From the IMG/VR virus record IMGVR_UViG_3300026116_000027, positions 1 to 31,097 of that record: DNA of 31,097 bases, one strand, 5' to 3'. Position 1 is the stretch's first letter, and the number at the start of each line of letters is the position of its first letter. Source of the DNA: a virus. Made by a program: the position numbers and the translations under genes. Below, piece after piece: positions 3,437 through 31,097 of this stretch. The notes beneath the pieces were generated by a model that made no database searches, had not been told where the DNA came from, and worked only from the letters and a program-made list of their open reading frames with translations.

Positions 3437-3799
3437 ATGCGATACCCAACCCTCGCTGAATTGCTCGCCTCGCCCGACGAGCTGGAAGCAGCAAAGACCG
3501 AAGCCGCAGCGCCCGGGCAAGCCCAGGCCATCGGCTCCACCATCGGCACCGTCGCCGGCGGCACCGCGGGCGCCCTCCTGGCCCTCGTGCCCGGCGTGGG
3601 CCCCGCGCTGGCCATCCCGGCCATGGGTGCGGGTGCTGGCGTCGGTGGTGCCCTCGGCTCGGCCATCGGTCAGCAGGTCGGCGGCAACATCGCCTCTGAC
3701 GCTGAGAAGAAGCTGGCGCAGCGAGACGCGTTTCGTCAGCGGACGCTGGCCGAGATGAACGCGCGTCGTCAGTCGCTTCAAGACCTCCTGGCTGAGTGA
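3437..3799 (+). CDS. Glycine-zipper membrane-type protein, 120 aa
   Basis: Residues about 29-85 are a long hydrophobic stretch of Gly, Ala, Val and Ile with repeated GxxxG spacing (glycine zipper). It is broken near the middle by PGVGPALAIP, suggesting two closely packed membrane helices. A charged amphipathic C-terminus (KKLAQRDAFRQRT) follows. Such proteins can sit in or cross the inner membrane; DNA ejection or lysis (holin-like) are both possible. Its place between terminase and portal favours a virion component, though no direct motif decides this. The ribosome site is weak. It ends 11 bp before the portal start. Confidence 0.7.
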   Translation: MRYPTLAELLASPDELEAAKTEAAAPGQAQAIGSTIGTVAGGTAGALLALVPGVGPALAIPAMGAGAGVGGALGSAIGQQVGGNIASDAEKKLAQRDAFRQRTLAEMNARRQSLQDLLAE

Positions 3800-3810
3800 G
3801 GCACGCACCC

Positions 3811-5631
3811 ATGGCTGCCACACCAGACAAGATCCGCACGCTGTTCAACACGTGTTTGATGCGCGGACAAGCGCAAGCCAAAGACTCGCGTGCCCAAGCC
3901 GAGATCAATGAGGCGTACGTTGCTGGTCGGCAGTTTGGTTCCATCCAGCACACACCAAACACGACGATCTACAAGCCCGACGACTGGAACGACGACCTAC
4001 CGCGCATCACGATGAACGTGTGCCGCGGGACCATGCAGGTCTGGGCCGCGTACCTGTCTAAGGCCCGCGTCTCGGCCACGGCCTACCCGGCGTCGGACGA
4101 TCCCGAGGACGTCTACCGCGCGGAGCTGGCCAATAACCTGATCGAGTTCACGATCACCGAGGACAAGACCGCGGAGCTGATCGGCCACATCGTGCAGCAA
4201 GCATGCGTCGCCGGCACCGCTGGGCTTCGCCTTGAGTACGACTCCGACGAGGACCGCATCACGTGGACGCCCCAGACGATCTGGGACTTCTACGTCGACA
4301 ACAAGCAGGACCCCACCGAGCGGCGCTGGTGCATCTTCGTCAAGCACGTGGACGTCGAGGCGGCCCTGGACCTCGTGGAGCGCTTCGGAACCGACAAGGC
4401 GTTCACGCCGTCTGAAGAGCCCTACAAGCAGGCCAATGGCGTCGAGGCCGACGGCGTGCTGGTGCACGAGTTCTATCACCGGCCCACCCGCGACTTCCCT
4501 CGTGGGCTCTATGCGCTGTTCCTGGCCGGTGAGCTGCTGCACTCGCTCGACTTCCCCTTTGTCGTTGAGAACGACAGCAGCAAGCCCGAGTACCTCTTGC
4601 CGCTGGTGCTGATGCGCGTGCGCACGGTGCGCGGCCTGGCCTATGGCGAGACCAATCTCTCCGACGTCATCGGGCAGCAGCGCCTGATCAACGAGATGCT
4701 GAATCGCGAGCTGGCCCACCTGCGCAAGACCGCGGGCGTCAAGCTGGTCGCGCCCACCGACCTCTCACAGAAGTGGCTGCCCGGCGAAGACCAGATCTTT
4801 GGGTACTCGCCCATGGACCCATCCGGTGGACGCGGGATCGAGATCCTCACGATCCCCGAACCGCCAACAGCGTATGCGCGCATGCGCGCCGAAGCCGAAG
4901 CGGCCATCCCCGGCATCATCGGTCTCAACGACCAGAGCGCGGGCGTCACCAACCGCACGTACAGCGGCAAGGCGCTGGAGCTGATCGATCAGCAGGACGC
5001 CAGCAAGAACGCCGACGCCCAGCGCTCTCTCGAAAACATGGTCCTCGACGCCTACCGGCTGTTCTTCGCGCTGGTGACGAGGTTCTACACGACGGCACGC
5101 CAGATGAAGATCGGCGACGCCGACCAGGCCACCGTCGTCAGCTTCAGTGGTGCGGACGTGCAGGGCGTCGACCTTCGCCTGGAAGCGGCGTCCGAGTTGG
5201 ACAAGCTGGACGCCGTCGAACAGGCCACCGCGAAGCAGGACTTGCAGCAAGGCACGGGGACCCGCGCCGACGTCGACAAGGCCACACACTCCGCGGGCTA
5301 CACGATGTCGCGCAAGATCTCGCGCCAGATCATCGCGCAGTACCTGGCCGGTCACACGCTGCCCGACCCGCGCCCGGGCGTGGACTTCGACGTGGACGTC
5401 TTCCACGACGAGCTGGCCCGCGCGAAGGCCCACGCCCTCGGCAACAAGGCCGACTGGCTCGCGCTGCACGCCCTCGGGCAGCTCATCGACGACCTGGCCG
5501 AGCACCACGACGACGCCGCTCCGCCCCGCGCAGAGCAAGCGCCCGCGCAACCTAACGCAGCACCTGCACCGGTCGCGTCGGCACCGACGCCTGCTGTGCC
5601 CACGACGGTGCCCGGAGGACTGCCCTCATGA
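3811..5631 (+). CDS. Portal protein
   Basis: The dodecameric ring at the capsid vertex through which DNA is packaged and ejected, and to which the tail attaches. At 606 aa it is in the range of podovirus portals (the P22 protein is larger). The N-terminus is helical (NDDLPRITMNVCRGTMQVWAAYL). A middle portion looks like the portal clip and stem. The region TNRTYSGKALELIDQQDASKN (about residues 377-397) is typical of P22-type portals, where the chain passes from the stem into the crown. The C-terminal 50 residues are Ala/Pro-rich tail. ATG 3811 is preferred over GTG 3796 because GAGG lies at a proper distance. It overlaps the next gene by ATGA. Confidence 0.85.
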   Translation: MAATPDKIRTLFNTCLMRGQAQAKDSRAQAEINEAYVAGRQFGSIQHTPNTTIYKPDDWNDDLPRITMNVCRGTMQVWAAYLSKARVSATAYPASDDPEDVYRAELANNLIEFTITEDKTAELIGHIVQQACVAGTAGLRLEYDSDEDRITWTPQTIWDFYVDNKQDPTERRWCIFVKHVDVEAALDLVERFGTDKAFTPSEEPYKQANGVEADGVLVHEFYHRPTRDFPRGLYALFLAGELLHSLDFPFVVENDSSKPEYLLPLVLMRVRTVRGLAYGETNLSDVIGQQRLINEMLNRELAHLRKTAGVKLVAPTDLSQKWLPGEDQIFGYSPMDPSGGRGIEILTIPEPPTAYARMRAEAEAAIPGIIGLNDQSAGVTNRTYSGKALELIDQQDASKNADAQRSLENMVLDAYRLFFALVTRFYTTARQMKIGDADQATVVSFSGADVQGVDLRLEAASELDKLDAVEQATAKQDLQQGTGTRADVDKATHSAGYTMSRKISRQIIAQYLAGHTLPDPRPGVDFDVDVFHDELARAKAHALGNKADWLALHALGQLIDDLAEHHDDAAPPRAEQAPAQPNAAPAPVASAPTPAVPTTVPGGLPS

Positions 5632-5987: not shown

Positions 5988-8018
5988 ATGGCGTGGACCT
6001 CGCTCAAAGCCCGCCCCAATGTCTACCGCGCTGGCATAAGCCAGGGCGCACGCAAGGCCAGCGGTACAAGCGGGCCGGTGACGATGTTCGCCACGCTGAC
6101 CGGCGATTCGGGCAACGCCAATCTGTCGGACACTTTGACGGTCAACAGCACTGCGGTCGCGCCCACGCTGGCGTACCGCGGCGAGGATGCCAACGGCACA
6201 ACGTGGACACCCGTGGCCGGCCCGTCACTCAGCATCGGCAGCACGGGTGCGACGCCCACGAGCGCCTTGACGCCGGTGACGACGTCAACGGAGCGCGCCC
6301 AGGCCTTCGTCACGACCGGCAAGGTGTACCTCTCAGCCACGAACGGCGACGGCAACCTGGGCACCGATGACTTCGTGATCGAGATGCTCTACCGCGCGGG
6401 CAGCGCCGGGCAGCTCATCGGCAACCGCGTGGCCCTCGGCTGGAAGATGGACCAAACGAGCGCGACGGCCGCGCGCTTGGTGTTCTCCGACGGGACGACC
6501 AACGGAACGCCCGGATGGACGTCCAACACGGGCGCTTGGTACCACGTGCTCGCCTTCTCCGACCGCTCCGAAGGCGCCAACTCGTGCAGCGTTTTCGTCA
6601 ACGGTCAGCTCATCATCACGACGACGACGCCAACGAACAGCATCGACGCCTCAAACGTCTTCGCCATCGGCGCGCAGCCCGACGCGAACGGCAAGACCGA
6701 TGCGTCCCTCGGCTTCGCCCGGATGTGGCGTCGTCCCTCCTGGTTCGCTGGCACCGCTGGCGGCAACGCCGCGCAATGGCTGGCCGTCGCCCAAGAGCGC
6801 TTCGCGCGTCTCACGGGCTGCTATGCCTCAGCGAGCACTGGCGGCAAGCCCACGCCCACCACGATGACCCGCACGTCCATTGCCTACCTGGATCGAGTGG
6901 TCAGCACGGGCCCTTCGGTCCGCCAGCTCTTCTTGACGGGAGCCAACTGGCCGCGTCTCTGTCGTCGAGAGAACGTCGCTGGAGGCACCTTCCTAACCGG
7001 CGCTGTTCTTGAGCCACAGGCAACGAACCTCTGCTTGCAGTCGGAGACGTTCGACAACGCCTCCTGGACCAAGGTGGCTGGAACGATCACGCCCAACGCG
7101 ACGGCCGCGCCCAGCCTCGACGCCACAGCCGATGCGTACGTGGCCGACGCGACGACCGGCCTGCACGCGCTTGCACAGACCTTCACGCTAACTGCGGCCA
7201 CGCACGTGTTCTCCTGCTTCGTGAAGGCCGGCAACCAGTCCATGGTCATCCTGGAGGACGGCTTCTATTCGACGACGGGACGCGCCTGGTTCAACTTGGC
7301 GACGGGCGCTGTGGGCACAGTGCAATCTTCGATCGCAGAAGCGTTGATCGAGCCCTTCGGCAACGGTTGGTTCCGGTGCTCGATCAAGTTCACGGGCACC
7401 GCAGCCAGCCACACGCTGGCGGTGTACTGCGCGAGCACCGACAGCGATCCAACGAGCACCGGCGACGCATCCACGACGTCAACGTTGGTGTGGGGCGCTC
7501 AGCTCGAAATCGTCAGCGACGGTGCGCCGTCGAGCTACGTCACGACGACCACGGCAAGCATCACACGCACGATCGACTCGCTTGACTATGACCTGACCGG
7601 CAGCTTCCCCGCCACCGGCCTGCCGTTCACGGTCAGCTACGACATGATGTCGCGCAGCTATGACCTGCTTGCGTCGTCGATGCCGCTCTGGATCTCCAGC
7701 GCCTCGGGCACCAACACGGACAGCGTGTACCCGGTGATCAGCGGAGCGGACGTAGCGGCCGGCAACATGTTCGTGGGCGGTGTGAACCAGCTCGGCTTCT
7801 CGGGCGGCACCGACATCATGAACGGCGAGAAGCACACCCACGCGCTCGTCATCGCGTCGAACAACGCGGCGCTTGTCGTCGACGGCAGCACGGTGGCCAC
7901 CGACGCCACAGTCAACTTGATGTCAGCAGCGATGACGTACGCGCGCATCGGCAGCTTCCAGTCAGGAACGAACATGTGCGGCTGCCTCGTCAGCAACGTG
8001 CTCGTGAAAACACCGTGA
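5988..8018 (+). CDS. Virion fibre with concanavalin A-like (LamG-type) domains
   Basis: A 676-aa protein almost wholly of Ser/Thr/Ala/Gly-rich beta structure. Residues about 100-270 show a LamG/ConA-like jelly roll (FVIEMLYRAG, WYHVLAFSDR, SVFVNGQLI, FAIGAQ). About 340-520 is a module I know from many phage fibres: NLCLQSETFDNASW, then NGWFRCSI, then LVWGAQLE with a tail of Thr. About 529-676 forms a third jelly-roll-like module. These modules usually bind carbohydrate, so the protein probably contacts the host surface. Its position, between portal and scaffold, is unusual for a tail fibre and would suit a head fibre. It lacks a recognisable catalytic motif. Confidence 0.75.
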   Translation: MAWTSLKARPNVYRAGISQGARKASGTSGPVTMFATLTGDSGNANLSDTLTVNSTAVAPTLAYRGEDANGTTWTPVAGPSLSIGSTGATPTSALTPVTTSTERAQAFVTTGKVYLSATNGDGNLGTDDFVIEMLYRAGSAGQLIGNRVALGWKMDQTSATAARLVFSDGTTNGTPGWTSNTGAWYHVLAFSDRSEGANSCSVFVNGQLIITTTTPTNSIDASNVFAIGAQPDANGKTDASLGFARMWRRPSWFAGTAGGNAAQWLAVAQERFARLTGCYASASTGGKPTPTTMTRTSIAYLDRVVSTGPSVRQLFLTGANWPRLCRRENVAGGTFLTGAVLEPQATNLCLQSETFDNASWTKVAGTITPNATAAPSLDATADAYVADATTGLHALAQTFTLTAATHVFSCFVKAGNQSMVILEDGFYSTTGRAWFNLATGAVGTVQSSIAEALIEPFGNGWFRCSIKFTGTAASHTLAVYCASTDSDPTSTGDASTTSTLVWGAQLEIVSDGAPSSYVTTTTASITRTIDSLDYDLTGSFPATGLPFTVSYDMMSRSYDLLASSMPLWISSASGTNTDSVYPVISGADVAAGNMFVGGVNQLGFSGGTDIMNGEKHTHALVIASNNAALVVDGSTVATDATVNLMSAAMTYARIGSFQSGTNMCGCLVSNVLVKTP

Positions 8019-8949: not shown

Positions 8950-10281
8950 ATGGCCGTCACGAACGTCACTGCGAACGCACTCAGCACGCTGATCCGTGAA
9001 TTCGCGCCTGAACGATGCATGACTGCATTGCAGGCGTCGTCTCCGCTCATGGCGGACAACTCGATCCTCGACAAGAAGACGAACGTCAAGGGTGAGTTGA
9101 CGTTCACCGTGTTCCCCGCCGAGAACTTCGCCGGCGGCATGGTCAGCGACTTCGGCAACTTGCCCGCCGGTGGCGCCGACATCCCGAGCAAGGGACGCGT
9201 GCTGCCGCAGCCCTTCGTGGAAGTGGTCCAGATGGGCCGCGCGGCCGTCGACATGGAAGTCACGGCCGAGGGCGTGGTCGAGATGTTCCAGAGCAACATC
9301 GACAACCGCAGCCGCGCGCTGAGCCGCAAGATCAACTCAGCGATCTACGGTGGTGCACCGCAGCCGAGCGCGGGCACGACGTGGAACGCCACGACCGCCA
9401 ACGCGACCGCCACCGTGGCCTTCACCGACGCGTCGCTGTTCCGTCCGGGTGCGGCATACGACTTCTGCGATCTCTCGTCGGGCAACACCTACGTCGTGCG
9501 CTGCACGGCCGTGGCGTACACCAGCAACGTCGCAGCCAACGTCAGCTTCATCAACGACGTGCCGTCGGCCACCGGTTCGGTGACGGCGCTGACCGACACC
9601 ACGATCGCCACTGGCGACACCTTCCGCATCCGCGGCGCTGGTGGTCCTGGCTTCGGCACGACGACGGTGCTCTCCGGCATGATCAGCTTCGACAGCATCG
9701 CCGGCACCGGTGCCGCAGCCACCCTCCACGGCATCGCACCAGCCTCGCTGCCTGGCTGGACCGGCCAGAACCGGGCGCTGGGCGCGGCGTTCACCCAGGA
9801 AGCCTCTGCGGGCTTCACGGGCCTCCTGGCGCAGATCTCGGGCAGCCAGTTCACCCACGTGCTGTGCGGTCCCCAGACCGCCGCAGCGATCGCCGTGAGT
9901 GGTGGCGTCCAGGGGTCGGTGCTCTCGTCGGGTGGTGCGGCTCCGGCCCTCGGTGGCGCTGGCCGTTACGACCTCGGCTCGGTGAACAGTGACAAGTACG
10001 AAGGCCTGGCGACGCGTGCGTCGGGCAAGACCGGCCTCACGCTGCACGGGCGGCCCGTCGTCGAGGACATCTCGTGCCCGGCGTCGACCATCGTCTACCA
10101 CTGCCGGGACACCACCAAGCTGGCCGTGTGGAAGGCCATGGGTCCCCAGGAAGAAGCTGGTGACCCGTTGCTCGTCGACCGCACCACGTACTCGTTCAGC
10201 ACCCAGATCGACTGGCGCGGAAACCTGTACACGAACCAGCGCGCCTCGATCGGCATCATGACAGGCGTGACCGCGCTGTAA
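8950..10281 (+). CDS. Major capsid protein
   Basis: 443 aa, six bases after the scaffold gene and followed by a strong terminator, the usual place and size for the shell protein. The N-terminal 130 residues contain an alternating strand/helix pattern (ELTFTVFPAENFAG, PFVEVVQMGRAAVDMEVT, RALSRKINSAIYGG) consistent with the E-loop and spine helix of the HK97 fold. The middle (about 135-240) is Thr/Ala-rich beta sequence, possibly an inserted surface domain. The C-terminal part (RTTYSFSTQIDWRGNLYTNQRASIG) looks like the P-domain/A-domain end. Identification rests on context and pattern; I see no close resemblance to P22 coat. Confidence 0.8.
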   Translation: MAVTNVTANALSTLIREFAPERCMTALQASSPLMADNSILDKKTNVKGELTFTVFPAENFAGGMVSDFGNLPAGGADIPSKGRVLPQPFVEVVQMGRAAVDMEVTAEGVVEMFQSNIDNRSRALSRKINSAIYGGAPQPSAGTTWNATTANATATVAFTDASLFRPGAAYDFCDLSSGNTYVVRCTAVAYTSNVAANVSFINDVPSATGSVTALTDTTIATGDTFRIRGAGGPGFGTTTVLSGMISFDSIAGTGAAATLHGIAPASLPGWTGQNRALGAAFTQEASAGFTGLLAQISGSQFTHVLCGPQTAAAIAVSGGVQGSVLSSGGAAPALGGAGRYDLGSVNSDKYEGLATRASGKTGLTLHGRPVVEDISCPASTIVYHCRDTTKLAVWKAMGPQEEAGDPLLVDRTTYSFSTQIDWRGNLYTNQRASIGIMTGVTAL

Positions 10282-16425: not shown

Positions 16426-19215
16426 ATGAGCCTGAACAGCAGCTACCTCGCGATCATGACCGCCGCGGGCCTCGCCGATAAGCAGCTCGAACGCGAGCGC
16501 ATCAAAGCAGCGCGTGACGCGGCCAACGCCCAGGCATGGTCCGGTGCGCTCTCCTCGGGCGTGCAGGGGCTGACAGGCCTCGCCACCACTGCGCGGGACA
16601 CCGCAGACAAGAACTTCGATCGGAACATCGCACTGGACCGCCTCGTCGGTCCCGGCGAGCAACTGCCCGCGTCGGTCATCCCGGCCACGCCGGTGACCCT
16701 CTTGCCGCTGTCGGACACCAACGACTGGTTGGGCAAGCTGTCCGGCCCCAGCGTGCAGCGCATGCCCGCGGCTGCGATCCCAGTCGATGGCGTCGACGAG
16801 ACCGCGTCGTTCCAGGACATCCCCAGGTACGTGCCGCCCAAGCCCGCGCCGGTGCTCGACCTGCTTGCGCCACCGCGCACGGACTTCGTCACCAAGCCCG
16901 AGGACGACAAGCCCTCGACGCCACCTGCGCCCGCGCCGCTGATGCCTGCACCGTTCGGTGTGCCGGTCTCGGCCGCACGGGACGCCATCACCAACGCCGT
17001 GCCGAGCTACACCAAGCGCAGCGCCCCGGTGCTGACCAGCGACCTCCAGGAGCCTCTACAGGCGGCCAAGGAGGCCATCCCCGACGACGCCGGGCGTGAC
17101 GCCCTCGACGCGGCCATCACGTCGGGCGTGCGCACCAAGGACGAGCAAGCCCGCCTGTACGCGGCCCGCGCGTCCAACCCGTTCCCGGTGGCTCCGCCTG
17201 GCTCCAGCGAGCACGAGACGGGCAAGGCCATCGACATCGACTTGTCGACGATGACGCCCGACGCCCGCGCGGCCTTCACCAAAGTGCAGGACACCCGCAA
17301 GGCGCAGGGGCTCTCCTACTACACGTTCAACACCCCGAACGACCCGGTCCACGCAACGCTGATGCCCGCGGATCCCTCGGTGACGACGATCGTCGGCCGC
17401 AAGATGCCCGACCTCGACAAGCCGATCGACGTTGCTGGCGGCACGCCGTCCGACCTCGGTGTGCTGCCGGGCGAGACCCGCGACGCCTTCAAAGCGCGGT
17501 GGCGTCGTCAGCTCGGTGCGACCGACGACCAGGCCGAGGCCTACGCGCAGAACGTCTATGACACGTTCGGGCTGCGGCGCACCCGCACAGCCATCGCCAA
17601 CAAGCTGCAAGGCCTGCCCGAGGATCAGATCCTCGCTGCCCAAGATGCGGTGGCGCCACTGCCCTCGCGCACCACCACGACGACCGCGACACGCCCAAAG
17701 GTCCCACCGCCGGCCCCTCTCGCGGAGCCCACGCCCATCCACTGGGCAATGACGCCAGAGCAAGAGGCTGACCGCTACCTCGGCCAGCGCGGCCAGAAGC
17801 CCGGCCAGTCGTCGTGGCTGTCGCAGCTCGTCGGCATCCCCGAGGACAACTACGACTTCCATCGTGGTCGACTCGTCGACGCCATCAAGGGACAGCGCCG
17901 CGACACCGAGCAAAAGGCCTTCCAGGCGTTCCGCGATGCGCAGAAGCTGGACCTGGAGCGCCGCATCGGCGAGTCGACCATCAACAAGAACAACGCAGAG
18001 GCCGCGAAGGCCGCGGGCGCAGAGGGCTCGCTAGGCAAGCAGTTCACTGCCATTGCCCAGAACGCCATCACGCCCACGATCCAGAAGTACACGGCCAGGC
18101 TCCAGCTCGACGCCACGCCCGACCTGGTCACCGAGGCAAACAACGCGATGCGCTCCGAAGGCCTCAAGGCGCTGGCCAACGCGGGCATCGACATCACCGA
18201 TCCGAAGAACGCTGTGCTCGTGCAGTCCTCCGTGGCGCAGGCCATCGAGGACGCCACCAAGGCGAACAAGAAGCAGAAGGTCGAACAGAAGCAGGTCGAC
18301 GACTTCGAGTCCGTCCTCGACATCACCCGGCGCATGGACCTCAACGCGCAGAAACGAAAGGACTCCGGCTGGACGCCCGAGTTGCAGGACGTGCTCAAGC
18401 ACGAGCTGGACTCCGTCAAGCTGCCCTTTAACCTCGACACGATCGGTGAGGTCATCCGCGACGTGGGCCGCAAGATGCGCGTGACGCCCGCGCAACAGGA
18501 GTACCTGCGCGACAGCGAGGCGCTGATCAACCTGATGATGCGCACGGCCAACGGCAACTTCAACGTTACCGATGGCGACGCACGACGTCTCGTCGACGGA
18601 CTGATCTCGCCCTACACCACGGATGAAGCGTTCCGTCTCGCGAGCGAGAACCTCAAGCGCGACATGCTCGTGCGCGCCCAGCACAACTTCCAGAACTACA
18701 GCCCGTTCTGGGAGCTGCCCAAGGACCTCGGCCCGCGCATCGACGAGGCGCTGGGCAAAGCCCCGGGGGCTTCGCCCGACCCGCGCTTTGCGAACAAGAC
18801 GACACCAGAGCTGGTGAAGCCCTCGTCAGACACGAGCAAGGCTGACCAGATCGTCCTCGGTGAGACCGCTGCGCCGGTCAAAGGTCTCGTCGACATCATC
18901 ACATCGGGCGCGTCCAAGATCACCAACCCGCTGGAGCTGCTCACCGGGCCAAGCGAGGCCGAAACGGCACGCACTGGTGCGTCGACGACGGGGCCCAGCA
19001 AGCCCAAGACAAAGCCCTTCACCGGCAACAGCGCGAGGGACATCGGCGTCGACGCTCGACTCGGTGGCAAGCTGGGCGCGCTCAAGGCCGAGGCACAGGC
19101 CGCGGGCGTCGACCCCAACGCGATGACCGCGGCCCTCGCTGGCCTCTCGTTCTCGGGATCTGACCTGGTGAAGGCGGGTAGGAAGTACATCGCTGACCAC
19201 CGAACGAAGCGCTGA
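16426..19215 (+). CDS. Large internal virion protein with M15 peptidase-like domain
   Basis: 929 aa, the longest gene and last of the late block. The N-terminus has charged helices (KQLERERIKAARDAANAQ); 130-175 is a Pro-rich linker. Residues about 205-315 resemble VanY/M15 D,D-peptidases: TSGVRTKDEQARLYAAR, then SEHETGKAIDID with H263 and D270 as zinc ligands, then DPVHATL with H309. The usual catalytic Glu before the last His is not evident; Asp occupies that area. The remaining 600 residues are mostly long helices, as in ejection or tape-measure-like proteins. It probably travels with the DNA and opens peptidoglycan locally. The ATG has an AGGA site. Confidence 0.7.
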   Translation: MSLNSSYLAIMTAAGLADKQLERERIKAARDAANAQAWSGALSSGVQGLTGLATTARDTADKNFDRNIALDRLVGPGEQLPASVIPATPVTLLPLSDTNDWLGKLSGPSVQRMPAAAIPVDGVDETASFQDIPRYVPPKPAPVLDLLAPPRTDFVTKPEDDKPSTPPAPAPLMPAPFGVPVSAARDAITNAVPSYTKRSAPVLTSDLQEPLQAAKEAIPDDAGRDALDAAITSGVRTKDEQARLYAARASNPFPVAPPGSSEHETGKAIDIDLSTMTPDARAAFTKVQDTRKAQGLSYYTFNTPNDPVHATLMPADPSVTTIVGRKMPDLDKPIDVAGGTPSDLGVLPGETRDAFKARWRRQLGATDDQAEAYAQNVYDTFGLRRTRTAIANKLQGLPEDQILAAQDAVAPLPSRTTTTTATRPKVPPPAPLAEPTPIHWAMTPEQEADRYLGQRGQKPGQSSWLSQLVGIPEDNYDFHRGRLVDAIKGQRRDTEQKAFQAFRDAQKLDLERRIGESTINKNNAEAAKAAGAEGSLGKQFTAIAQNAITPTIQKYTARLQLDATPDLVTEANNAMRSEGLKALANAGIDITDPKNAVLVQSSVAQAIEDATKANKKQKVEQKQVDDFESVLDITRRMDLNAQKRKDSGWTPELQDVLKHELDSVKLPFNLDTIGEVIRDVGRKMRVTPAQQEYLRDSEALINLMMRTANGNFNVTDGDARRLVDGLISPYTTDEAFRLASENLKRDMLVRAQHNFQNYSPFWELPKDLGPRIDEALGKAPGASPDPRFANKTTPELVKPSSDTSKADQIVLGETAAPVKGLVDIITSGASKITNPLELLTGPSEAETARTGASTTGPSKPKTKPFTGNSARDIGVDARLGGKLGALKAEAQAAGVDPNAMTAALAGLSFSGSDLVKAGRKYIADHRTKR

Positions 19216-19227
19216 GAGGCCTCGGTC

Positions 19228-19263
19228 GACGGTGACGTTCCAGCCCCAGGGGACGTCACCGTC
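19228..19263 (+). terminator. Hairpin after the late block, probable terminator
   Basis: GACGGTGACGT at 19228-19238 is the exact complement of ACGTCACCGTC at 19253-19263, with a 14-nt loop. It begins 13 bp after the late block's last stop. No clean T-run follows (TCGTTTCGGCTTCT comes after a short gap), so Rho-independent termination is only likely. Confidence 0.5.
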
Positions 19264-19560
19264 AACACGTCGTTTCGGCTTCTGATCAACAACGGCCGAG
19301 ATCCCGAAGACGAGTCGATCCGAATTGTCGTTACGAGCTGACAATATCGAGATCTCGATCTTCGGAAGAGTGGAAGGAGGTACAGCCGGAGTCTCTGTGT
19401 TGGGTAGCCCGGCTGTAGACTGCGACCCAAAGTGCTTGCCTGGTCTCGCGCGCTGCGATAGGCAGCCCTCGGCCCAGGCGAGCGTTGGTTTGCATAGTAA
19501 TAGTGGACGTGCCTGATATGGTTTTCACCGTAAGGGAATAGTCCTTCTCCCAACGCACGA
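19264..19560. other. Structured non-coding stretch, no convincing gene
   Basis: I find several exact dyads here: ATTGTC/GACAAT at 19324-19329 and 19340-19345; a 14-bp palindrome ATCGAGATCTCGAT at 19346-19359; and TACAGCCGG at 19381-19389 paired with CCGGCTGTA at 19409-19417. The short open frames on both strands lack codon bias and good ribosome sites. A possible rightward promoter, TTGCAT at 19490-19495, 18 bp, then TGATAT at 19514-19519, would lead transcription into the hairpin array. The promoter call is weak. The stretch may be an RNA leader or a binding region. Confidence 0.35.
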
Positions 19561-19564
19561 CTGG

Positions 19565-19860
19565 ATTCCCCGCAAGGGGTCGGCCCCGACGAGAACCAGG
19601 GCGTGCCTTCGGGCCCCTGCGATGACCGTCGACGACCGCACCCCTGACATAGCCCCTCGGGGCACCCGGACCTGGCCCCGTAGGGGCACCATCGGCGCTA
19701 GCGCCACCACGTACCCAAATCCACATAGGGCCGAACGTCGTGACGCCCACCAAGAGCCTGTAAGGCACCCAGGCGCTTCGGCGCACCAAGCCCTAGTGGC
19801 ACCACGGTCCCGTAGGGACACACAAGCCCCAGTGGCACCCAGGCCGTTCACGGCACCAAG
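19565..19860. repeat. Quasi-periodic array of mini-hairpins, possible structured RNA or ssDNA element
   Basis: Nine short hairpins of 11-13 nt start at 19652, 19675, 19694, 19756, 19773, 19790, 19807, 19826 and 19843, mostly 17-19 nt apart. Stem sequences differ but pairing is kept (GCCCC/GGGGC, GGCG/CGCC, GCGC/GCGC, GTCCC/GGGAC, GCCG/CGGC). Loops are 3-5 nt (GTA, TTCG, CTAG). Eight of the nine are followed by ACC; the seventh has ACA. Looser members lie upstream (CCCC-GCAA-GGGG at 19568-19579; GCC-TTCG-GGC at 19605-19614). Neither strand codes convincingly. The pattern is seen directly; its role is unknown. Confidence 0.65.
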
Positions 19861-20103
19861 TCTACAGCGTTCTCTGGCTTCGGCTGGAGCAGCATATAGC
19901 GCCAGGCCTGATCAACCTGGCGGCGGCACGAGGGCTCCCTGTCATGTCCAGACGGGTGCGGGCCCCGGCGGAGCCGCGCCTCGACGCACCTGATGCCATC
20001 GGTGTGCGCGGGTGCGGCTCCGCGGCGCTGCGACGTCGACGATGATGGGCGTGCTTGACCGCGCCCAGCATCGTATCGGCGGAGCCGCGCCTCGGTGACG
20101 TCG
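19861..20103. other. Non-coding stretch with 18-bp direct repeat and alternative hairpins
   Basis: CGGCGGAGCCGCGCCTCG occurs at 19966-19983 and again at 20077-20094. Between them GCGGCTCCGC (20014-20023) can pair with the matching core of either copy, giving two exclusive hairpins. Another stem-loop at 20041-20072 (GATG/CATC plus TGGGCG/CGCCCA, one mismatch) lies just past the leftward gene's stop and may terminate its transcription. No gene is apparent. Confidence 0.45.
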
Positions 20104-21039
20104 TCAGAACATGCCGCTCGGTGCGTCGCAGGCCCAGTTGGTCATGGTTTCCAGATACATGCACTTGTCGCCGTTGGTGCAGTCCTCTTCGTGACCCTGG
20201 CGGCAGGTCTTGAGGCACGTGCCCGTGAGGGGTGAGCACTCGGACCCGGCCTCGCAAGGGTTGTCGGCGTTGCACGGTGTGCGGCACCGTGCCTCCCAGC
20301 GATTGCCGTAGCCGGTCTGAGAGCACGTCTCGCCAGGCTTGCACGCGTTGGGCTTCGAGCAGTCCACGGACGCCGTCGAGTAGCACATGCCTTCGCGACA
20401 CGAGTAACCGTGCTCGCATTTGACGTCGTCACAGCTCAAGCGGTCGCACACGAAACCATCGTAGGTCATCGTGCAACCGTAACCGGCGGGGCACTTCTGA
20501 TTGCCAGCGCATGACGCACCACAGAGGCCGCGTAGGCAGACGAGGCCTTCAGCGCAGCGCTCATCACCGTCGTTGATGCCGCAACCCTCGCCAACCTTGG
20601 CGTGACCGATGGCCTGGCACGTCGTGATGGTCGACCCGGCCTCGCTCATGGTGGCCGACGCGCAGCGTTCGCCCTTCTTACAGTCGGCGTCGACGCGGCA
20701 GTTACTCCTGATGCAGGCAGGCGCGCGCGTCGCCCAATCGATGCCGCAGTACCCGTCGTCACCACAGTCCGCGTTTGACTTGCACGTGCCACAGCCCGCA
20801 GCGGCGGGGTCGCACGCGAGCATCCCCTTGGGGATCGTGACGTGCTCACTGGCAAGCGGGACGGCGGCCTTCGCCACCGTCGCCACGCGCTTCGTGGTCG
20901 ACGTGGGCGTGTCGACGTGCTGGCCCACGGCTTCGCCAGCATCGGCCTGCACCTCAACGCTCGGTGCGTCGGTGCGCAGCAGAACGAGGCCGAGGACGAG
21001 GACGGCGAGCACGCCGACGACGATCGCTGCGCGGCGCAT
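20104..21039 (-). CDS. Secreted or membrane-anchored cysteine-rich protein
   Basis: 311 aa from the ATG at 21039, which has a GGAG site that overlaps the upstream gene's end. A single hydrophobic N-terminal segment (AAIVVGVLAVLVLGLVLL) is a signal peptide or anchor. After a 50-residue Thr/Ala linker come about 34 cysteines in repeated units such as CRVDADCKKGERC and CEHGYSCREGMC, suggesting disulfide-bonded modules outside the cytoplasm. Such Cys-rich repeat proteins are common in myxobacteria and relatives, so the gene may be captured from the host. It is in neither the structural nor the replication block and is leftward, typical of lysogenic-conversion cargo. A role at the cell surface, for example in receptor masking, is inference. 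Confidence 0.75.
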   Translation of the reverse strand: MRRAAIVVGVLAVLVLGLVLLRTDAPSVEVQADAGEAVGQHVDTPTSTTKRVATVAKAAVPLASEHVTIPKGMLACDPAAAGCGTCKSNADCGDDGYCGIDWATRAPACIRSNCRVDADCKKGERCASATMSEAGSTITTCQAIGHAKVGEGCGINDGDERCAEGLVCLRGLCGASCAGNQKCPAGYGCTMTYDGFVCDRLSCDDVKCEHGYSCREGMCYSTASVDCSKPNACKPGETCSQTGYGNRWEARCRTPCNADNPCEAGSECSPLTGTCLKTCRQGHEEDCTNGDKCMYLETMTNWACDAPSGMF

Positions 21040-21044
21040 GGCGA

Positions 21045-21248
21045 TCACTCCATCCAGTAGTCGACGGTGACCATGACGCCACCGATGGCGCACTTCTGGT
21101 ACCCGCACATGAGGTCGCCACCCTTGGCCGAGCAGCCGCACGCCTCACGCCCGTACATGCAGGCGCCAGCGCGGCCAGCTTGGGCGAGGGCAGCGCCGGC
21201 GGCAGTCATGATGGCGACGACGATGGCGATGGTGATCTTGTTCTTCAT
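21045..21248 (-). CDS. Small secreted cysteine-containing protein, 67 aa
   Basis: The ATG at 21248 opens a classic signal peptide: MKNKITIAIVVAIM then TAAGAALAQAG, with a probable cleavage after ALA. The mature part of about 42 residues has five or more cysteines (ACMYGREACGCS, MCGYQKC) and ends DYWME. It is upstream of and 5 bp from the 311-aa Cys-rich gene, so they form one operon and probably act together outside the cytoplasm. The longer upstream frame is not used, as the signal peptide starts here. Function unknown. Confidence 0.7.
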   Translation of the reverse strand: MKNKITIAIVVAIMTAAGAALAQAGRAGACMYGREACGCSAKGGDLMCGYQKCAIGGVMVTVDYWME

Positions 21249-22268: not shown

Positions 22269-22288
22269 CCCACCACTTTCCCCACCAC
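22269..22288. repeat. Left integrase arm-type site repeat
   Basis: CCCACCACTTTCCCCACCAC is repeated exactly at 22537-22556. It is made of two tandem units of about 12 bp (CCCCACCACTTT). The two copies lie on both sides of the attP core, 145 and 68 bp from it, as expected for the arm sites bound by the N-terminal domain of a tyrosine integrase. Confidence 0.65.
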
Positions 22289-22413
22289 CTGCCCACGGTG
22301 CCCATCCAAGCAGTTGAAATTGCAAAGGTTCTGCGGGAGGCGCTACCCGCGTTTTTCGAGGGATAGTTGCAAAAAGCCTTTGTGATTACAGCTACTTAGG
22401 AGGTCAGGCGAGA

Positions 22414-22469
22414 ACTCAAAATCCGGTGCCCGCAAGGGCGTGCCGGTTCAAGTCCGGCCTCGGGCACCA
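22414..22469 (+). other. attP: attP core: 3' end of a tRNA-Leu(CAA)
   Basis: This segment reads as the 3' part of a bacterial tRNA-Leu: anticodon loop CTCAAAA (anticodon CAA), a long variable arm (TGCCCGCAAGGGCGT), T-arm GCCGG-TTCAAGT-CCGGC, acceptor strand CTCGGGC, then ACCA. No 5' half (an acceptor strand GCCCGAG) lies upstream, so it is not a working tRNA gene. A phage that integrates into a tRNA gene carries such a 3' copy so that the host gene is restored on insertion. It lies beside the integrase gene and between its arm sites. Confidence 0.8.
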
Positions 22470-22496
22470 AAACCCAGCGGAAACGCTGGGTTTTTT
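22469..22496. terminator. Strong stem-loop terminator next to the attP core
   Basis: AACCCAGCG (22471-22479), a GAAA loop and CGCTGGGTT (22484-22492) make a perfect 9-bp stem, extendable by A/T pairs, followed by TTTT. It can end transcription from the integrated tRNA-Leu on the plus strand. On the minus strand the flanking A-run becomes T, so it can also end integrase transcription, whose stop is 20 bp away. Confidence 0.8.
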
Positions 22497-22515
22497 CATG
22501 GGCCCGCCGATGGGA

Positions 22516-23748
22516 TCAGGCGGATCCACTATATGCCCCACCACTTTCCCCACCACTTTGGGCCGGCCCACGCCACACGGCAGCCGACAACGCCGCGCGC
22601 TTCTCGGCCATCTCGGCCGTGGAGTAGTGCAGGTGCATCGTCTCAGTGGTGTGCCCCGCGATGGCCATCGACACCGCCTTGTCGCCTGTGTGCTGTCGGA
22701 CCGTGTTGACCACGGTTCGCCGGAACGCATGCGGCGTGATCCTCGGCAGCTCGGCCAGCTCGCACGCCTTGTCCATGATGGTCCTGAACCTCTTGCTGGC
22801 CAGGGGCGTGCCCCGCTGCGACAGGAACAGCATGGCGCCCCACTTGGCCGAGGGCGCCCAGCCCTTGAGGTACTCCAGGAGCAGCGCCTTGGCCCGCGGG
22901 TCCAAGGGAACGAACCGCGTGGACCCTTCCGTCTTGGTCGTGTCGCGCACGTTGCCCTTGTTGTTCGACCGGTGGATGTGGATGACGTCGTGGACCAAGT
23001 CGACGTCCTCCTTGTGCAGCGCCGTGACCTCTCCAATGCGCGCACCGCTCATCGCGGTCAGGTAGAGGATCGTCCGCACCTTCAGCCACTCGCGCGGGTT
23101 CGGGTGACGACGGAGGCGCACGCGCTCCAGCGCGTCGAGGAAGCGCCATAGCTCTGGCTTGTTCGGCGTCGGCGTCGGCCTCATCTTCGGCAGGCCGGCC
23201 ACCTCGATCTTGAACCGGACGGTTCTGTCGAAGAGGTTGGGGAGGTTCGCCTTCCGGCACACGAAGCGCATGAACACGCTCAGCGTCCGCCATGCACCTT
23301 GCAGCGTGGCCTTGCTGTAGCGCTTGGCTGCGCTCGTCTTCTGTTTGGGCGCCCAGGCCAACCACTCGGCCAGGTCGTCTTTTGTCAAAGAACCGACTGA
23401 CCGCGACCCGAAGTAGGGCAGGATCAGCATCTCCATGTGCTCCAGGTACCGCTGCTGACTAGACGGAGCACATGTCGTAAATCCAGTGTCCTCTTTCCAT
23501 TTCTCCAGGAACGCGGACACCAGGTCACTGTTTTTGCCTGTCACCACCTTGTGGGCAGCGGCGCTTGTCAGTCCTCGACGCAATACAGCCTGTCTGTCTC
23601 TCGCATCGCTGATTGACCCAGTGACCTTCTCCTCTTTGAATGACCGCTCACCTTGCTTCTGTACTCTCGCGATGACCAAGTACACGCCAGGCTCTACTCG
23701 GTAGATCCCAGGGAATTCGGTCGCCTCGCCTCTTGTCGTTGTTGCCAT
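22516..23748 (-). CDS. int: Tyrosine-family site-specific integrase
   Basis: It recombines attP with the host tRNA-Leu site. 410 aa from the ATG at 23748. Longer frames exist upstream but are low-complexity, so they are left out. Residues about 10-60 match an arm-binding domain (GIYRVEPGVYLVIARVQKQG). About 75-165 is the SAM-like core-binding domain (FLEKWKEDTGFT, LTKDDLAEWLAW). About 190-390 is the catalytic domain, with R237 (SGARIGEVTAL), K272 (TKTEGSTR), H340-x-x-R343 (TPHAFRRT), H366 (AGHTTETMHLHY) and nucleophile Y375. The right arm site overlaps its 3' end. A second open frame with a zinc-finger-like motif overlaps the start on the same strand. Confidence 0.92.
   Translation of the reverse strand: MATTTRGEATEFPGIYRVEPGVYLVIARVQKQGERSFKEEKVTGSISDARDRQAVLRRGLTSAAAHKVVTGKNSDLVSAFLEKWKEDTGFTTCAPSSQQRYLEHMEMLILPYFGSRSVGSLTKDDLAEWLAWAPKQKTSAAKRYSKATLQGAWRTLSVFMRFVCRKANLPNLFDRTVRFKIEVAGLPKMRPTPTPNKPELWRFLDALERVRLRRHPNPREWLKVRTILYLTAMSGARIGEVTALHKEDVDLVHDVIHIHRSNNKGNVRDTTKTEGSTRFVPLDPRAKALLLEYLKGWAPSAKWGAMLFLSQRGTPLASKRFRTIMDKACELAELPRITPHAFRRTVVNTVRQHTGDKAVSMAIAGHTTETMHLHYSTAEMAEKRAALSAAVWRGPAQSGGESGGAYSGSA
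22537..22556. repeat. Right integrase arm-type site repeat
   Basis: Second exact copy of the 20-bp repeat found at 22269-22288, here inside the 3' end of int. Immediately after it CTTTGGG continues, so the site holds two full CCCCACCACTTT units. Confidence 0.65.
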
Positions 23749-24252
23749 GCGCTGCCGTCCAGTGCGGGAGCGCCTCCTGCTGCGTGGGGTAGGTTGCGTT
23801 GCAGGGACACGCAATGTGGTGGTTGCCCGGGGCTTGCGGGACCTGGGCGTGGGTGAGCTGAGCGCCGCCGCCAGCGAGGCAGCGGCGCCCTGCGCCAATG
23901 GGTTGAGCACGGGGACGACCGGGGACAGGCACGACGGGACCGGGCCACGGCGCGCCGCGCGGGCGCACCAGATGGCCACGTGGAGGCACCCAACGCCCGG
24001 TGCCCATCGCCCAGCTAGAGCTGGACGCACGCCGCACGGATGGGGGCCCGCGCGGTAGGTCGACCCTCGGACGGGTCGCTGTCGTGCCCTGGCCGCTGGC
24101 CGGGCTGCCTCCCCTCGCCACGACAGGGCGCCCCGGGAGGTCACGTGCCGCATTACGGCTGCGGACTGCCTGGATTCGGGGCTAGGTCCAGACACGTCTT
24201 ACGGCAATGGAGATCTTCCCCGATCACTGCGACCAACCTTGTCAACGAGCCC
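23749..24252. other. About 500 bp without a confident gene, upstream of int
   Basis: Frames are open on both strands because the DNA is so G+C-rich. The int frame extends upstream to 24195, but its product is a Pro/Ala/Arg-rich run without motifs. A minus-strand frame that overlaps the int start ends at 23648 and shows a C-P-C...H...H pattern at 23818-23740 with good third-position bias; it is described as a finding. No other structure is apparent apart from small G+C-rich dyads. Confidence 0.4.
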
Positions 24253-24405: not shown

Positions 24406-24669
24406 ATGTCCAGCGACGACAAGGTCACGGACGTCCTCGACGACGTCCACGCCCGCCTCCAGAAGTACGAGGACACACCGACCGACGACGATGGCGACGA
24501 GGACCTCAATCCGGTCCAGGTAGCGATCCTCGCCATCCACGAGGCGCTGTCGGACGCGAGCGACCGCAGGGCCGCAGCCAAGGCGCTCATCAGTGCCGTC
24601 GTCGACGGCCTGCTGTCGCACGATCGCCACGACGAGGGAGACGCGGATGACCGCCCTTCAGACCTTTGA
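24406..24669 (+). CDS. Small acidic hypothetical protein, 87 aa
   Basis: The ATG at 24406 has one of the best ribosome sites in the window (AAGGAGAG). The N-terminal half is very acidic (YEDTPTDDDGDEDLN); residues about 35-75 are a helix (VQVAILAIHEALSD, AAAKALISAVVDGLL). It is first in the early block and overlaps the BRO-N gene by 23 bp. The family is not recognised. Small acidic first early proteins are often regulators or host-takeover factors, which is conjecture here. Confidence 0.75.
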   Translation: MSSDDKVTDVLDDVHARLQKYEDTPTDDDGDEDLNPVQVAILAIHEALSDASDRRAAAKALISAVVDGLLSHDRHDEGDADDRPSDL

Positions 24670-25450
24670 TTTCCGCGGCGAGGAGCTGCGCATGGTCATG
24701 GTCGACGACGAGCCGTGGTTCATCGCCGTCGACGCCTGCGCGTGCCTCGGGATCGGCGATACCCACGTCGCTCTCAGGCGCCTCGACCCCGACGAAAAGG
24801 GTAGGTGCTCCGCACCTACCCCTGGTGGGCCGCAGGAGGTCCGCACAGTCAGCGAGGCTGGCCTCTACAAGCTGATCGCTCGCTCCGACAAGCCCACGGC
24901 AAAGCGGTTCCAGCGTTGGGTGACCCACGAGGTGCTGCCGAGCATCCGGCGGACCGGCAGCTACTCGGTGGCCTCTGACGACGACGACCTGGACGACCTC
25001 GACCAGGTCAACGCAAACGCACAGGCTGCGCTCGCGCTCGTCGCCCAGAACCAGGCGCTGTTGCAGCGGCACGTGGCCAAGGTCGCTAGGCGCGTCGAGG
25101 TCATCGATCAGCGCGTCGACGACCTGGAGACGGCCAAGGCAATCCAGTTGATCCCGGCCACCAAGAAGCAGGCGATCGCGCTGGTGCGCAAGTCGTTCTC
25201 GCGGGCGCTGACGTACGCTTTTGCCGACGAGGCTGCGCAGGCACACCGCGACGGTCAGAGTGGCGAGTTCTGGCAAGGGGTCAACGGCGCCCTCGTCAAG
25301 GCCGTCGGTGCCAAGCGCGCGGGCTGGCGGCACGAGCACTACGTGCTGGCTGTGCAGTGGCTGCACGACCACGCAGGCAAGGACCTCAGCCACGTCCTTG
25401 AGGGTCGTGCGGAGCCAGCGCCCACGCGCTCCCGTAGGCCGCGCGGGTAG
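24647..25450 (+). CDS. BRO-N domain antirepressor-like protein
   Basis: 267 aa; the ATG at 24647 follows GAGGGAG and overlaps the previous gene. Residues about 5-107 are a BRO-N domain: FRGEELRMVMVDDEPWFIAVDACACLGI, then LDPDEKG, TPGGPQEV, VSEAGLYKLIARSDKP, then FQRWVTHEVLPSIRRTGSY. The domain binds DNA and is found in phage antirepressors and early regulators. A coiled-coil stretch (about 125-165) and a C-terminal helical domain (about 170-255) follow. Its likely role is in the switch between lysogeny and lytic growth. The coding region for residues 51-59 contains a perfect 10-bp hairpin. Confidence 0.85.
   Translation: MTALQTFDFRGEELRMVMVDDEPWFIAVDACACLGIGDTHVALRRLDPDEKGRCSAPTPGGPQEVRTVSEAGLYKLIARSDKPTAKRFQRWVTHEVLPSIRRTGSYSVASDDDDLDDLDQVNANAQAALALVAQNQALLQRHVAKVARRVEVIDQRVDDLETAKAIQLIPATKKQAIALVRKSFSRALTYAFADEAAQAHRDGQSGEFWQGVNGALVKAVGAKRAGWRHEHYVLAVQWLHDHAGKDLSHVLEGRAEPAPTRSRRPRG
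24799..24821. repeat. Perfect hairpin inside the BRO-N gene
   Basis: GGGTAGGTGC (24799-24808) and GCACCTACCC (24812-24821) are exact complements with a 3-nt loop, TCC. It encodes the turn between DEKG and TPGG in the BRO-N domain. It may be chance or a transcript-level control. Confidence 0.6.
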
Positions 25451-25457
25451 CGCTGAT

Positions 25458-25520
25458 CCGTGACGACGACGACGATCAATCAACGCGCTCCACACGTGTT
25501 GCAGATCGTCGTCGTCACCG
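25458..25520. other. Long imperfect hairpin upstream of rep, candidate origin
   Basis: GTGACGACGACGACGATC at 25460-25477 pairs with GATCGTCGTCGTCAC at 25504-25518, one ACG unit being looped out. Inside, CAACGCG and CGTGTTG extend the stem with one mismatch. A further weaker stem (25568-25577 with 25602-25611) lies just before the rep start. Rolling-circle origins are typically hairpins near the rep gene, so a double-strand origin is possible. It could instead end transcription of the BRO-N gene. Confidence 0.4.
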
Positions 25521-25625
25521 GGGCTGAGTCCCTGGTCCCGCACGTAGTCCTCTCGTATCCCTACTCCCCCTGATCACCCTCACTACCCAAACCCCCGGGC
25601 AGTGGTCAGGGCACGAGGCCACGAG

Positions 25626-26777
25626 ATGCATTCGCCAGCAACGCGCGCAGCGCACGACGCCCACGACGAGTCCCTTGACGTGCTCCGTGCGTTGACCTCG
25701 TCCCGACTGCAAGACGCTCACATCGCGATGGGCGATGAGACCAGTGCCCACCGACTCGCCGCGTGCGGCAAGGCGGTCATGTTCATCGTGGGCGGAGAGC
25801 TGGTCTCCACTGACCAGGGCGAGGTCGTGCGCGAGCACGTTGCCTGTAGTGTCCCGCGGTGTCCTTGGTGCTCCACTGCCCGCTATGAACAGCACACTGC
25901 ATTGACGGCTTGCGTGGGGGAGGCCGGAGGCCGCTGCCGCTCTCTCGTCGTCACGGTGCCGCAAGATGTTGGGCCGAGAGACCTTTACTCCCGCTTCCAC
26001 TTCCTGACCGACGCTCTCCGACGTCTCTTCGCCAGCGCGAGCTGGCTGCGCCTCGTCGGCAAGGGTGTTCACGATGATGCTGGGTGGTTTTCAGCGATCG
26101 AGCCCAAGTGGACTGAGCGCGGTGGCCTTCACCTCCACGCCCACATCTTGACGGCCGTGGTCGTTGCGCGTGAGCGCCAGCTACTCTCTGACGTCGTCAA
26201 CACGTGGTCTCGGATACTAGGCAAGACCGCCGTCATCAGGATGGAACCAGTCAGGACCACTGCGGAGCAGGTTTCGCGCTACGTCTTGAAGGGCGTGGGC
26301 ACGGTCGGTGACGACGATGGCCCTCCTCCACATTTGCATGCCAGTGACAGCGACCTGAGAGATCTCGTGCGCCTCTCGATTGGCAGCGGTAGCGCGCAGC
26401 GCAAGGTGCCGGCGCGGTGGTGCGCCTTTCACGGCGCTTGGTGGGGACGTCCGAAGCCGGCTCCACGACGGAAGTCGAAGCTCAAAGGGCGCCGCGCAAC
26501 ACCCCGGCATGAGTTCCATGACGACGTCTCGGCGGGCAGGTACCTGGCGACCCGACTGCCTCGGCCTGTGCACATCGGCGCAGACGGGCAACCGACGCCG
26601 CTGACACCAGAGCTGGTGTTTGAAGACGAGCGCTTCAACGTCGAGGTGCCCACCGTGCGTTGGGTGCGGGTCCGCCGTCGTCGTCGCTGGTTCACCACGT
26701 TGCCTGCACGTCGAGACGAGTCCGTCGTGCGGTACGCGTGGGTCCGTGATGACCATGACGTCCTGGTCAAAGCGTAG
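25626..26777 (+). CDS. rep: HUH-superfamily rolling-circle replication initiator (Rep)
   Basis: 383 aa. It should nick the origin through a tyrosine and stay bound to the 5' end. A Cys cluster (C74, C79, C82: ACSVPRCPWCS) is like the zinc site ahead of motif 1 in plasmid Rep proteins. Residues 106-112 (SLVVTVP) match motif 1. LHLHAHIL (168-175) with H169/H171/H173 is the HUH metal site, aligned to the HPHFH form. RYVLKGV (218-224) with Y219 and K222 is the single catalytic-Tyr motif. The last 130 residues are basic. ATG 25626 has GAGG 7 bases away; GTG 25602 would add eight residues. Hairpins lie on both sides. It probably replaces a conventional replisome loader, as no other replication gene is recognised. 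Confidence 0.85.
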   Translation: MHSPATRAAHDAHDESLDVLRALTSSRLQDAHIAMGDETSAHRLAACGKAVMFIVGGELVSTDQGEVVREHVACSVPRCPWCSTARYEQHTALTACVGEAGGRCRSLVVTVPQDVGPRDLYSRFHFLTDALRRLFASASWLRLVGKGVHDDAGWFSAIEPKWTERGGLHLHAHILTAVVVARERQLLSDVVNTWSRILGKTAVIRMEPVRTTAEQVSRYVLKGVGTVGDDDGPPPHLHASDSDLRDLVRLSIGSGSAQRKVPARWCAFHGAWWGRPKPAPRRKSKLKGRRATPRHEFHDDVSAGRYLATRLPRPVHIGADGQPTPLTPELVFEDERFNVEVPTVRWVRVRRRRRWFTTLPARRDESVVRYAWVRDDHDVLVKA

Positions 26778-30946: not shown

Positions 30947-31097
30947 TGGCGTCGCCCATGCGCACGCGCTCACTGCGCCAGAAGTCCACGACGGCCTGCG
31001 CCTCGGTGACCTCGGTGGCCTTGCGGCGCTGCGCCACCTTCGCGGCCTTGGCCACCGTGTCGACGTGCACCCGCTGCCACGCCACCAGCCCGGCCTT
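30915..31097 (-). CDS. Zinc-ribbon-like phage protein, 3' part (continued from base 1)
   Basis: The C-terminal part of the leftward gene whose start is at 495. The stop is TAG (CTA on the plus strand at 30915-30917). Bases 30999-31097 repeat 1-99, so 60 codons of this piece are partly duplicated between the two window ends. The C-terminus (TEVTEAQAVVDFWRSERVRM) is helical. See the entry at 1-495 for the function. Confidence 0.7.
   Translation of the reverse strand, partial: KAGLVAWQRVHVDTVAKAAKVAQRRKATEVTEAQAVVDFWRSERVRMGDAIKAWVPRSLE
30999..31097. repeat. Right copy of 99-bp terminal direct repeat
   Basis: Identical to bases 1-99. Removing one copy gives a circle of 30,998 bp with the leftward gene intact. 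Confidence 0.9.

Follow-up and report, generated by a model that had tools for sequence, protein, structure and literature searches.

Protein-titrating small RNAs of the CsrB/RsmZ type consist of hairpins in a row with a short, repeated single-stranded motif and stems that may vary, the Csr/Rsm motif being A(N)GGA and lying mostly in hairpin loops (PMC4005645). The hairpin array described here shares this layout, but its constant motif is ACC and lies in the linkers. GGA occurs only twice per strand and AGGA is absent (19652-19860), which rejects assignment to this type. ToxI-type antitoxin RNAs and phage pseudo-ToxI arrays are likewise tandem RNA units borne by phages. Each ToxI unit is a pseudoknot of 36 nt that hardly differs in sequence from the next (PMC3475682), whereas the units of the present array measure 17-19 nt and have diverse stems. 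Tandem Repeats Finder reported 2.2 copies only (19638-19690, 76% matches) and called no array over 19756-19860; the 2.2 copies rule out both a conserved-sequence tandem repeat and the near-constant repeats of a ToxI-like array. For the two neighbouring proteins (16426-19215; 20104-21141), Pfam and PHROGs gave no toxin-family match that would indicate a ToxN-type endoribonuclease.

GOLLD and ROOL offer a further comparison as large, possibly structured noncoding regions of phage genomes; they form conserved families that often lie close to tRNA islands (PMC12286853). No covariance model of GOLLD, ROOL or any other Rfam family matched at gathering score, and extending the search to E up to 10 returned one chance-level match only, in agreement with the first-pass annotation, which knew no named element of this design. 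Lambda-type and plasmid iteron origins also have short dyads or repeats lined up close to A+T-rich DNA, and iteron repeats are initiator-specific sites (PMC5043065). The present array, in contrast, keeps pairing rather than sequence and is spaced out of phase: instead of a conserved repeat sequence in helical phase, we found differing stems with centres ~17.5 bp apart. Rolling-circle plasmids have single-strand origins in noncoding, hairpin-rich regions, and the replicon studied here encodes a possible Rep_1-like initiator; however, no described single-strand origin family was matched, and both Rep function and nick site are putative in this genome.

The window analysed is the whole virus record IMGVR_UViG_3300026116_000027 (31,097 bases; Table 1). 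Its first 99 bases (1-99) recur as an exact direct repeat in the last 99 (30999-31097), and because this end repeat is exact, the record is most simply read as a phage genome that is circular, complete and 30,998 bp long. The phage is temperate and without close relative in the collections searched. An attP-like site (22419-22515) corresponds to the 3′ part of a tRNA-Leu(CAA), from the anticodon loop to CCA, ending GGGCACCA and followed by a hairpin and a T run. Repeats of CCCCACCACTTT flank the attP core (22269-22296, 22536-22559) and are possible integrase arm sites. The attP tRNA-Leu is up to 92% identical over ~50 nt to Myxococcota tRNA-Leu(CAA) genes, and the Cys-rich protein beside the array, for which Pfam and PHROGs gave no match, belongs to a kind that we take to be typical of Myxococcota. 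A host in Myxococcota is a guess, since it rests on these two points. The product of 25602-26777 matches Rep_1 (PF01446) below the curated cut-off (E 6.7e-4 with the library as reference, 3e-6 with the one genome). HLHAH and YxxK motifs were seen in it by eye, here in a tailed temperate phage, and perfect 13-nt inverted repeats (GTGACGACGACGA / TCGTCGTCGTCAC, 25460-25518) lie upstream of its gene as a possible origin or terminator.

Table 1. Coordinates of the hairpin array, its surroundings and the recognised genes of the phage genome
Feature	Coordinates	Strand	Remarks
Noncoding gap	19216-20103		888 bp, between convergent genes
17-nt inverted repeat	19225-19266		just past endolysin-like gene; terminator-like, without T run
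Candidate long-range closing helix, 5′ strand	19412-19421	+	GCTGTAGACT; perfect 10-nt complement of 19859-19868
A+T-rich stretch	19489-19553		tied second most A+T-rich 60-bp stretch of genome
Extended -10-like site	within 19489-19553	+	TAGTAA, 16 nt, TATGGT; towards array; consensus match only
Array of nine hairpins	19652-19857	+	ACC/ACA tails; direct reading
Hairpin 1	19652-19663	+	GCCC-CTCG-GGGC, then ACC
Hairpin 2	19675-19687	+	GCCCC-GTA-GGGGC, then ACC
Hairpin 3	19694-19705	+	GGCG-CTAG-CGCC, then ACC
Looser hairpin inside array gap	19728-19748	+	GGGC-13 nt-GCCC (4 bp), then ACC
Hairpin 4	19756-19766	+	GCCT-GTA-AGGC, then ACC
Hairpin 5	19773-19784	+	GCGC-TTCG-GCGC, then ACC
Hairpin 6	19790-19800	+	GCC-CTAGT-GGC, then ACC
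Hairpin 7	19807-19819	+	GTCCC-GTA-GGGAC, then ACA
Hairpin 8	19826-19836	+	GCC-CCAGT-GGC, then ACC
Hairpin 9	19843-19854	+	GCCG-TTCA-CGGC, then ACC
Candidate closing helix, 3′ strand	19859-19868	+	AGTCTACAGC; starts 4 nt after last hairpin
Terminase large subunit	1874-3397
Portal	3796-5631
Tail protein	5988-8018
Protein in capsid position	8950-10281
VanY-type endolysin domain	16426-19215		within 929-aa protein
Cys-rich protein beside array	20104-21141	-	hydrophobic stretch near its start
Tyrosine integrase	22516-24195	-
Bro-N (BRO family N-terminal domain) protein	24647-25450		PF02498, E 2.5e-21
Rep_1-like protein	25602-26777	+	weak match
HNH and GIY-YIG proteins			also recognised in genome

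Direct reading bore out the nine hairpins of 11-13 nt reported in the first-pass annotation, all in one orientation, and the tails directly 3′ of them, which are ACC in eight units and ACA in one. Its account of extent and spacing held in part: there is one gap and the steps are mostly 17-19 nt, but one step measures 23 nt (start to start: 23, 19, 62 across the gap, 17, 17, 17, 19 and 17 nt), and the array spans 19652-19857 rather than 19565-19860. Stems are 3-5 bp long, two of the nine hairpins combining a 3-bp stem with a 5-nt loop, and the counted stems contain no G-T pair. The second, third and fourth stem pairs vary on both sides among units, for example from C-G to G-C or to T-A. The best-conserved part of the units is the linker core, GSCACCNNG. 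Within the array the + strand carries 11 ACC and five ACC[A/C]AG, against one and none on the - strand; six of the + strand sites read ACCA, other units having ACCC or ACAC. Some units are evidently related copies (19787-19803 and 19823-19839, 94% identical; 19764-19790 and 19834-19860, 81%).

Six ACC/ACA-tailed hairpins follow one another at 16-21-nt steps in the longest chain observed, whereas dinucleotide shuffling, done 1000 times on the 888-bp gap and likewise on the array by itself, gave chains of two at most; this rules out chance in GC-rich DNA as the source of such ACC-tailed chains. Tailed hairpin ends numbered nine, compared with at most five in the gap shuffles and three in the array shuffles. 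In the array, 8 of 11 ACC sites directly abut a preceding hairpin with a stem of 3 bp or more, versus 114 of 1168 (9.8%) elsewhere in the genome (binomial p ~1e-6). Stem arms matched their own partners at 34 of 36 pairs, equalled in none of 20,000 re-pairings of the 3′ arms among units; this figure is partly built in, because the units were chosen for pairing, and the shuffle and ACC-anchored tests are fairer. Since chains of 7-9 hairpins occur in other GC-rich loci when the ACC condition is dropped, it is the ACC tail that makes the case. The codon usage of the phage genes is absent from all six frames over the array, every one scoring negative, and the 17- and 19-nt steps break the reading frame across it, which together rule out protein coding, including a protein-coding repeat. 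The shuffles, the arm re-pairing and the frame scores thus support the earlier proposal that the units, with differing stems and kept complementarity, have pairing in common rather than sequence or coding.

Excess folding energy of the array, whose absence the first-pass annotation had named beforehand among its grounds for refutation, was found on neither strand (z about -1). Unconstrained folding of 19560-19870 gave z -0.96 on the + strand and -0.65 on the - strand relative to shuffles, and in the predicted minimum-energy structure part of the mini-hairpins are lost. All nine form exactly once base pairs may span no more than 20 nt (z -1.44). Hairpin-loop energies favoured neither strand (+ or -) and neither chemistry (RNA or DNA). 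When pairs may span up to 60 nt, the whole gap is more stable than its shuffles (z -6.2 and -4.3), an excess likely due to the large dyads at both gap ends rather than to the array; the upstream part, 19370-19650, also exceeds its shuffles (z -2.2).

The gap, noncoding and dyad-rich as described earlier, is the largest between listed genes. At its far end (19968-20103), a 13-nt arm occurs in three alternating copies (GCGGAGCCGCGCC / GGTGCGGCTCCGC), of which the middle one can pair with either outer copy. An upstream promoter had been suggested as well: the extended -10-like site resembles the consensus and is among the best-scoring in the genome, but a stricter promoter scan found nothing. The candidate helix joining 19412-19421 to 19859-19868 would possibly close a domain ending shortly past the last hairpin; such a 10-nt complement could also be chance, one pair of this kind in a gap of this size being not unlikely. 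This helix and the promoter-like site could not both belong to one transcript, because the helix would begin upstream of that site.

No second array turned up in Rfam, in phage or plasmid collections, in scans of viral contigs or in 379 Myxococcota genomes. No relatives emerged among viral contigs searched by endolysin, portal, terminase and Rep, nor among genome contigs searched by portal; the tail-fibre protein led to 14 viral loci, the best of which shares that protein only. INPHARED contained no match to the endolysin, portal or Rep, and the plasmid collection none to Rep; DNA searches with the gap and with the array gave no useful match. Pattern scans of viral and genome contigs showed, among the matches listed (at least 294 loci, 2.4 Mb), no other array of at least four different ACC-tailed hairpins, the genome-contig pattern having a gap range too narrow to match this array itself and the viral scan having also been run with a wider range. 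A covariance model of the last six hairpins returned seven weak partial matches in the 379 Myxococcota genomes (E 0.01-0.06), fewer than expected by chance. Portal and Rep each gave one marginal match in Myxococcota, that for Rep being rejected on inspection by eye as it sits among TadE-like frames, and the capsid-position protein had no match in the Myxococcota class searched. Literature searches brought no relevant description of a hairpin array in a phage. Because the reach of these searches is limited, the lack of relatives is not proof of uniqueness.

Tentatively, at a probability of roughly 0.35, we favour the reading that selection has shaped the array to work in single-stranded form, most likely as a phage noncoding RNA whose hairpins space ACC(N)AG motifs so that a multivalent protein can bind them. 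Pairing that is kept while stem sequence is free suggests that the element works single-stranded, either as RNA or as DNA, and the linker after each hairpin is the one fixed element, which points to the hairpins as spacers and the linkers as binding sites. The array would be transcribed on the + strand as a phage noncoding RNA or part of one; the hairpins would be compact spacers that make few demands on sequence, and the single-stranded linkers recurring between them (five of them ACC[A/C]AG) would be read-out sites for a putative RNA-binding protein. Such a protein could engage several linkers at once, so that the RNA would gather or titrate it. The six-hairpin chain, the 34 paired positions and the + strand bias of the linkers argue for a noncoding RNA, as do the noncoding frames, the formation of all nine hairpins at the 20-nt limit, the extended -10-like site and the upstream folding. 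The + strand z of -0.96, the loss of part of the mini-hairpins at minimum energy, the weakness of 3-bp hairpins, the neutral loop energies, the conflict between closing helix and promoter-like site, the empty strict promoter scan and the absence of relatives in the collections searched weaken it. More doubtfully, the array may represent a novel class of elements that act single-stranded, whose sequence-free mini-hairpins form only a ruler that shows a fixed ACC(N)AG linker every 17-19 nt to a multimeric phage or host protein.

Two readings place the array in replication or DNA binding, and the weak Rep_1-like protein together with the A+T-rich stretch is why we retain the replication forms of both. 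Rolling-circle replication might expose the array on the displaced strand, where the hairpins would direct lagging-strand priming as a single-strand origin or load a phage or host protein; we consider this unlikely, though it would suit the largest gap between listed genes, which holds an A+T-rich stretch, and the Rep_1 match and its HLHAH and YxxK motifs point the same way. With Rep on the + strand, plasmid precedent would put the array on the displaced strand in its ACC orientation. The pC194-type nick motif, CTTGATA, is absent here, however, and we know of no single-strand origin built of such a hairpin array. Origins of the complementary strand rely on host enzymes and are separate from the Rep origin (PMC5714925), which fits the proposal, but the Rep match itself is weak, the structure predicted for the protein is unusable (pLDDT 34), no PDB relative was found, and DNA loop energies give no support. 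It is similarly improbable, in our judgement, that the units work as double-stranded DNA, in the form of degenerate iterons or operators whose GSCACCNNG cores, ~17.5 bp apart, are bound by an initiator, partition protein or repressor, the dyads being incidental or reflecting dimer binding. The linker core is indeed the most conserved part, lambda origin iterons are also inverted repeats binding O dimers, and an A+T-rich unwinding element, common in origins (PMC5043065), has a possible counterpart 100 bp from the array. Arms that match each other while differing in sequence would nevertheless not be expected if a protein reads sequence, and the spacing of centres is out of helical phase, unlike that of plasmid iterons generally (PMC5043065).

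An origin by mutation without function, in which an old tandem duplication was followed by template switching that perfected imperfect palindromes during replication, would account for the related copies (94% and 81% identity) and accords with the absence of relatives showing conservation. The ACC or ACA fixed beside differing hairpins and an 888-bp gap kept in a compact genome speak against such an origin and make it, to us, distinctly unlikely. Hairpins ending in ACC(A) could also mimic acceptor stems as decoys of tRNA 3′ ends for a host or defence enzyme, as the six ACCA on the + strand and the tRNA-Leu(CAA) 3′ part carried by the phage might suggest. This is very improbable: ACCA follows only part of the units, stems of 3-5 bp are far shorter than an acceptor stem, and ACC sites abound anyway in so GC-rich a genome (1168 outside the array).

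The array is a single example so far. If functional, it would show clearly, within one molecule, selection that holds base pairing while leaving stem sequence free, each unit being a comparison for the others. A multivalent RNA- or single-stranded-DNA-binding partner would then also be expected in a temperate phage without close relative in the collections searched.
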